In this document: one piece after another, positions 49,527 to 49,715 of the stretch
How positions within the stretch are numbered: the first letter of the stretch is position 1
Layout: each line of letters opens with the position of its first letter
Source: Bradyrhizobium sp. CCBAU 53421
Lineage (GTDB): Bacteria > Pseudomonadota > Alphaproteobacteria > Rhizobiales > Xanthobacteraceae
NCBI RefSeq assembly: GCF_015291625.1
Contig: NZ_CP030047.1
Span: 2,728,001-2,792,000, forward strand
DNA: 64,000 nucleotides
Direction of reading: 5' to 3'
Notes under the pieces: model-generated
The model's input: only the letters and a program-made list of their open reading frames with translations
Database searches by the model: none
What the model was told of the DNA's origin: nothing
Translations under genes and position numbers: made by a program

Positions 49527-49715
49527 GGTTCCCGTGAGGGAATCACCGCCGGACGGCGGTGTTCACGCCCGGAAGGGCAAAGTTGGACCGAACCGGTTTC
49601 GGTCGTCAGTCGCTGAAAAGCGGACGCTTGATCACCTGTGATAGGTGGGGCCAGCGTAACGTGATCCTGTGCCTGTACGGCAAGACCGGTTCTCTTTTGA
49701 TGGACAAAGAGAACC
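49527..49715 (+). ncRNA. Structured leader or non-coding RNA, undescribed
   Basis: About 190 nt form a series of hairpins on the plus strand. Stem 1 is GGTTCCC/GGGAATC with loop GTGA (49527-49544). Stem 2 is ACCGCC/GGCGGT with loop GGAC (49545-49560). Stem 3 is GCCC/GGGC with loop GGAA (49567-49578). Stem 4 is GACCGAA/TTCGGTC (49586-49604). Stem 5 is CGTC..CGCT/AGCG..GACG with loop GAAA (49604-49626). Stem 6 is CACCT/AGGTG (49633-49647). Stem 7 is GGTTCTCTTT/AAAGAGAACC (49688-49715), ending at the start codon. GNRA loops mark the plus strand as the RNA strand. GATCAC at 49630 could also pair with GTGATC at 49661. It may be a regulatory leader, a partner RNA or both. Confidence 0.55.

Follow-up and report, generated by a model that had tools for sequence, protein, structure and literature searches.

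What is the array of hairpins that abuts a candidate defence gene at its start codon in Bradyrhizobium sp. CCBAU 53421, and what could it do to that gene? The locus lies in the window, which is the whole stretch of 64,000 nt analysed here (contig NZ_CP030047.1, positions 2,728,001 to 2,792,000). An earlier note had described a folded RNA ahead of an abortive-infection-like gene. The 189-nt leader (49527-49715) was indeed predicted to form seven consecutive hairpins, the last of which includes the base directly before the ATG at 49716. Its folding energy is -83.0 kcal/mol (z = -4.36), and none of 200 shuffles equalled it. As the note had stated, the 10-bp last stem (H6) contains the sole purine-rich stretch of the leader, judged by eye. 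The elements follow the order H1, H2, P3 5' strand, H3, variable H4, P3 3' strand, H6, and start codon, and are listed below.

49493-49498, plus strand: -35-like sequence TTGACT, 34 nt ahead of the first hairpin (49527)
49527-49544, plus strand: extra 5' hairpin, 7 bp, GUGA loop
49544-49561, plus strand: extra 5' hairpin, 7 bp, GGAC loop
49563-49715, plus strand: conserved core of the leader RNA (match of model R2, 49563-49718)
49567-49578, plus strand: H1, 4-bp hairpin with GGAA tetraloop
49586-49604, plus strand: H2, 7-bp hairpin, mutually exclusive with P3ext
49595-49609, plus strand: 5' strand of P3/P3ext, partner 49673-49687
49610-49623, plus strand: H3, 5-bp hairpin with GAAA tetraloop
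49624-49657, plus strand: H4, variable stem-loop, outer 5-bp stem 49624-49628/49653-49657
49633-49647, plus strand: inner hairpin of H4, 5 bp, GUGAU loop at 49638-49642
49673-49687, plus strand: 3' strand of P3/P3ext
49688-49715, plus strand: H6, terminal hairpin with the ribosome-binding site, abutting the start codon (10 bp predicted in the H2 state, 6 bp in the P3ext state)
49716-51095, plus strand: gene of the 459-aa AIPR-like protein

The opposite strand of the window leader is nearly equal in stability (z = -4.52), so the folding energy cannot pick the strand. Since the energy in the window leaves both the strand and the function open, both were judged from the relatives of this locus.

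The 459-aa product has no Pfam match above the cut-off, including none to PF10592 (AIPR), and no PADLOC or NCBIfam match at E ≤ 1. The profile of its family has no sequence relative in the PDB, and no relative of the protein was found in the phage collection. Among 8000 candidates scored, 1459 relatives were found at E ≤ 0.001. A tblastn search matched three plasmid genes annotated as "AIPR family protein" (E 6e-8 to 2e-7); the matches cover 90-95% of the query, with 22-23% identity. Of 12 diverse family members that were aligned, nine matched PF10592 weakly (E ≤ 1), with 1.5e-4 as the best value, and the window protein was not among them. When the family profile was compared with that of ten classical AIPR proteins, LDGGHN fell opposite VNGGQT, and ARNNN opposite NSQ (E 0.0033, probability only 9.7%); the comparison with a single DndB protein returned nothing (E 0.62). 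On the basis of the PF10592 matches in the relatives and their absence in the window protein, the AIPR-annotated plasmid genes, and the profile alignment, the protein appears, as judged by sequence comparison, to be a remote and shorter relative of AIPR, outside the family by Pfam's own cut-off. These remote matches support the label "abortive-infection-like" given to the gene earlier. The AIPR (PF10592, AbiU1) and DndB/DGQHR (PF14072) open frames span 555-688 aa, whereas the protein here has 459 aa. AIPR proteins have an N-terminal HEPN RNase domain, according to the excerpt of PMC3506569.

Twenty loci with a full-length gene were compared. These are the window; L002, from Maritimibacter; the plasmid loci L005 (Roseomonas) and L006 (Subdoligranulum, Firmicutes); L008-L012, from viral contigs; and the genome loci L014, L015, L222 and L225-L232. 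Several of them are near kin by eye (L005/L008/L009; L011/L228; L012/L015; L222/L226/L227/L230). L004, L016, L223 and L224 were excluded before counting (partial or remote protein matches without significant RNA); L007 (a classical AIPR), a chance L011 match, and the duplicates L001, L003, L013, L161 and L207 were also excluded. A scan of genome contigs with a single protein query gave one locus. A second protein scan of the viral contigs returned the same five loci again, and the Firmicutes query returned none. DNA patterns of the H2 motif were also searched in viral contigs; among the matches listed, the protein is encoded only in L161 and L207, whose contigs are those of L008 and L009.

Two covariance models of the RNA, R1 and R2, were built from 5 and 11 loci, respectively. 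R1 located the RNA beside the gene, reaching the start codon, at six held-out loci: L014 (E 2e-12), L008 (5.5e-9), L009 (3.8e-8), L005 (5.1e-7), L006 (5.7e-4), and L002 (0.0039). It missed the window and L225. R2 recovered all seven homologues that were added later, with E values from 7.5e-21 to 1.4e-5, and it matched the window weakly (49563-49718; E 0.018 over 88 kb). Of the 15 loci outside R1 training, 14 have the RNA next to the gene, as found by R1 (six) or by R2 when held out (seven, and the window). The start codon is where 18 of the 19 model matches end; the exception is L232, whose match falls a few bases short. In the genome-wide search the window match has 15.8 bits (E 1.85 over 9.26 Mb), alongside an unrelated match of 16.3 bits; it is convincing because it is placed at the right gene. 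The four core pairs of P3 are gaps in this match, and the model's H2 is without a loop there. The earlier note had named homologues lacking the RNA, absent covariation and an Rfam match as findings that would speak against it; apart from one homologue, the RNA withstood all three checks. It is kept at 19 of the 20 loci; only at L225, the most distant homologue, was there no significant match by any model, the best one being an R3 match (E 0.3) at the right start position.

As a control, R2 was run on 100 of at least 205 viral stretches with an H2-like pattern, and its best match had 18.5 bits (E 0.035). The ten classical AIPR loci (for L249, only about 125 nt upstream) and the two DndB-matched loci gave no R2 match at E ≤ 1 and no R3 match below E 0.4. 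The RNA belongs to no known family as far as Rfam was searched, as had been supposed earlier. There was no match at E ≤ 1 in the window (49280-49800), none over the leaders of 8 loci by gathering score, and none over those of 11 loci at E ≤ 0.1; L010 was in both sets, and 19 of the 20 loci were covered (all except L015). The best background match of R2 is at 3850-3969 (minus strand) of L025, a viral contig where no AIPR-like gene was found. A retron or guide-RNA system was rejected, as it had been in the earlier note; among the 10 loci (of 20) for which neighbours were listed, the AIPR-like gene is the only one that recurs, as judged by eye.

Covariation analysis supported the fold. In 19 aligned leaders, with 24 pairs in five helices, 94.4% of the cells are paired; two-sided changes occur in 21 of the 24 pairs and 90 cells, compared with 11.1 pairs and 27.3 cells in shuffles (0 of 500 reached this). 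The alignments used for these 24-pair counts had themselves been fitted to the structure and so favour it, and the H2 cells of the window in the 19-row counts come from an alignment with a zero-nucleotide loop. Slid controls (1-3 columns) gave at most 10 pairs and 23 cells with two-sided changes. With the window row left out of the 19, the counts were 21 of 24 pairs and 88 cells; for a set of 11 loci that excludes the window, they were 18 of 24 pairs and 42 cells. An unguided fold (MAFFT/RNAalifold, 13 loci) recovered H1, H2 and H3, but not P3 and H6. Over 29 pairs, the mismatched or wobble cells comprise 63 G-U against 4 A-C, with 23 other mismatches. The 63:4 ratio of G-U to A-C indicates selection on the plus-strand RNA.

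The tetraloops show the same strand preference. In the 20 leaders, G-R-R-N tetraloop hairpins (at least 4 bp) number 47 on the plus strand and 5 on the minus strand, versus 8.3 ± 2.9 (maximum 18) in 200 shuffles. The loops had been described as GNRA, restricted to the plus strand. The strand bias stands; the loops are only partly GNRA, with 13 strict GNRA loops on the plus strand, 1 on the minus strand, and 3.8 in shuffles. The aligned loop is G-R-R-N in 17 of 19 rows for H1 and in 14 of 19 for H3; the commonest loop is GGAU (12 of 19 and 6 of 19 rows, respectively). H2 is a perfect stem with a G-R-R-N tetraloop at four loci (L006, L012, L229, and L231). CsrA-type GGA sites were considered and rejected, because the tetraloops of L225 are without GGA. 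Most Alphaproteobacteria are not known to have CsrA.

A TTGAC sequence is located 33-35 nt ahead of the RNA core at 13 of the 20 loci. Any TTGAC within 70 nt upstream was counted at 15 of 20 loci, versus 2.1 in shuffles (maximum 5). The distance from TTGAC to the core is 70 nt in the window and 71 nt in L002, where about 37 nt are extra at the 5' side with two GGAU-loop hairpins (by eye). The additional 36-37 nt correspond to two more hairpins, and the window transcript is therefore expected from about 49527. Transcription probably starts at the first hairpin. A sigma-70 scan of the window gave no promoter at TTGACT, and the -10 sequence (CATTGT) is poor.

The conserved GGUUC strand (alignment columns 48-52) has two partners. 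It pairs with columns 34-38 as H2 in 98.9% of the cells (the five cells of the window being those of the zero-loop alignment), and with columns 181-185 as P3ext; P3 and P3ext together are 96.9% paired. P3ext was outside the fitted structure, and P3 with P3ext shows 26 cells with two-sided changes versus 9.2 in shuffles (0 of 500). Three-way covariation was also observed. Column 52 is U in nine rows; in these, column 181 is A in eight, and column 34 is A in six (G-U in three). In L229 and L231, an equivalent three-way change is seen at columns 50 and 49. Because pairing is high in each helix and the changes are three-way, both of these mutually exclusive helices seem to be under selection. A switch had been suggested earlier from GATCAC (49630) and GTGATC (49661). 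These can form 6 of 6 pairs, but they lie in the variable inner part and are not in the conserved structure; the alternative pairing that is conserved is that of H2 and P3ext.

The predicted H2 and P3ext states differ by no more than 3 kcal/mol at 15 of 18 loci (exceptions L002, L226, and L006; the window was computed separately). In the predicted folds, the ribosome-binding region is less paired under P3ext at 15 of 18 loci, with no gain at L010, L014 and L232. The gain in accessibility is modest, from a mean of 0.29 to 0.45 (19 rows, in which the window row is invalid, as the forced H2 is impossible there), and the start codon is no freer (0.54 to 0.52). For the window, the predicted energies are -89.6 (H2 state) and -90.0 kcal/mol (P3ext state), with 10 bp and 6 bp in H6, respectively, and the unpaired fraction of the ribosome-binding region changes from 0.41 to 0.47. 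The shortening of H6 by P3ext is taken from this predicted fold of the window. A translational leader switch would be expected to have two conserved helices that exclude each other and are tied to the ribosome-binding site; the leader has two such helices, with the tie to the site predicted from the folds. A conserved leader peptide was rejected; the reading frames across H2 differ among loci (by eye, in the alignment).

These data suggest that the RNA is a bistable cis-acting 5' leader controlling translation of the AIPR-like defence protein, with a probability of roughly 0.6. The switch direction, translational control, ligand and defence role that we infer are as follows. In the window, the strand 49595-49599 (GGUUC/U) is predicted to pair either with the preceding strand (H2) or with the downstream strand (P3ext). 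With H2 formed, H6 would be complete and the ribosome-binding site buried beside the start codon (OFF); with P3ext formed, H6 would be shortened and the site freer (ON). The sensing part is likely to be the G-R-R-N tetraloop hairpins, including H1, H3, H2 at some loci, and the extra 5' hairpins of the window and L002. These are putative binding sites, most simply for the AIPR-like protein itself (feedback), or for another factor. Protein feedback is our first guess. A further step, tentative and rather doubtful, is that an infection-sensor RNA is coupled to a lethal AIPR-like effector, which would stay untranslated (perhaps tetraloop-bound) until phage infection flips H2 to P3ext; this might be the first case of RNA control in the AIPR/DndB superfamily, spread over at least two bacterial phyla.

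The main rival, in our guess at a ranking, is an RNA antitoxin or ribonucleoprotein, in which the leader, by itself or after cleavage from the mRNA, would keep the AIPR-like protein bound and inactive until infection. Each RNA has several alike G-R-R-N hairpins in variable number, inspection by eye showed no common partner gene among the 10 loci (of 20) for which neighbours were listed, and an abortive-infection protein neutralised by the RNA in front of its gene is a precedent, according to the excerpt of PMC12373285. Type III toxin-antitoxin systems (ToxIN, AbiQ, CptNI, and TenpNI) are alike in that an RNA lies just upstream of the candidate toxin gene. However, these systems have a terminator between the RNA and the toxin gene, whereas the terminator scan found 0 terminator-like sites in the window (49400-51200), as expected of a leader co-transcribed with its gene. 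Their antitoxin is a tandem-repeat RNA, whereas the sole repeat in the window (49400-49800) is a 16-bp one at 49493-49508, ahead of the RNA; their protein also differs from the AIPR-like protein. Moreover, the RNA here reaches the start codon, and its last hairpin contains the ribosome-binding site. An RNA antitoxin is considered unlikely.

Less likely still is a small-molecule riboswitch, with H1-H3 as the aptamer for a metabolite or a phage-induced nucleotide and H6 as the expression platform. The bistable pairing, the small energy difference between the two states and the hairpin at the ribosome-binding site speak for it, but the conserved sequence consists mostly of helices and tetraloops, with no large conserved unpaired pocket (by eye, in the alignment); we regard it as improbable. 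The hairpins could also be inverted repeats at the DNA level (a recombination site or a terminator array), or mere chance. The reverse strand of the window folds about equally well, and copies of the thiC 3' end flank the cassette. The G-U:A-C ratio, the loop counts on the two strands and the covariation refute this as a full explanation, leaving it a very slight probability, and they uphold the earlier view of a folded RNA rather than scattered inverted repeats. The cis-acting translational leader is therefore the preferred reading.

In translational riboswitches and in the autoregulated leaders of ribosomal-protein genes, alternative pairing hides or frees the ribosome-binding site. The leader here is alike in its alternative pairing at that site; it differs in its defence-like gene and in having no Rfam match. 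Structured RNAs ahead of abortive-infection genes are already known, in AbiF and type III toxin-antitoxin systems (as far as the excerpt of PMC12373285 describes them). In the AbiF system (C. difficile RCd22; same excerpt), too, a structured ncRNA that contains repeated hairpin motifs precedes a gene of the abortive-infection type. However, the AbiF protein belongs to Abi_2/AbiD/F and not to the AIPR-like proteins, and the RNA here has no Rfam match, runs into the start codon, and contains the ribosome-binding site. Since this kind of arrangement is known, the earlier claim of a new arrangement goes too far as regards the kind. No paper on this RNA, or on an RNA paired with an AIPR-like protein, was found among the matches listed (titles and starts of abstracts, from sources outside bioRxiv and most subscription journals). 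The analysis adds a well-supported class of structured RNA attached to a widespread AIPR-like protein family. AIPR proteins are counted among the abortive-infection genes, and how such a gene is silenced and triggered was addressed in no paper found; a conserved two-state leader makes this question directly testable.

The genomic context was also compared, and defence neighbours were looked up at some of the loci. At L008 the gene adjoins a type IIG restriction gene (PADLOC 2.1e-286), and at L005 a shorter relative of it (1.2e-50). A PLD-Snf2 helicase adjoins at L011, and likewise at L228 by its matching N-terminus. The segment 47341-51469 of the window, which includes the cassette, is absent from the closest fetched relative (G1722), where the flanks are 0.64 kb apart.

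Several other features of these loci were observed. The segment 47341-51469 also contains a ParA-like gene (48278-49165, minus strand) and small unknown genes. A resolvase-type recombinase is encoded upstream at L008. At L006, a hairpin at the H4 position (3834-3982) is followed by a T-run and is terminator-like by eye, unlike the window; on this Subdoligranulum plasmid, the AIPR-like gene is followed 2.5 kb further downstream by a PAPS-reductase/DUF3440 gene (7857-9278), which is weakly DndC-like. L012 (67-912) and L015 have similar genes immediately upstream for an unknown protein (..GDKLYQ..), and the L012 copy has no Pfam match. The 3' end of thiC is present three times in the window (49281-49476, 51169-51423, and 53337-53592), with the cassette between the two extra copies, and as a single copy in each of 20 other genomes of the genus. 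The window also contains a TPP riboswitch (58126-58269, minus strand), which is ordinary for thiamine genes.
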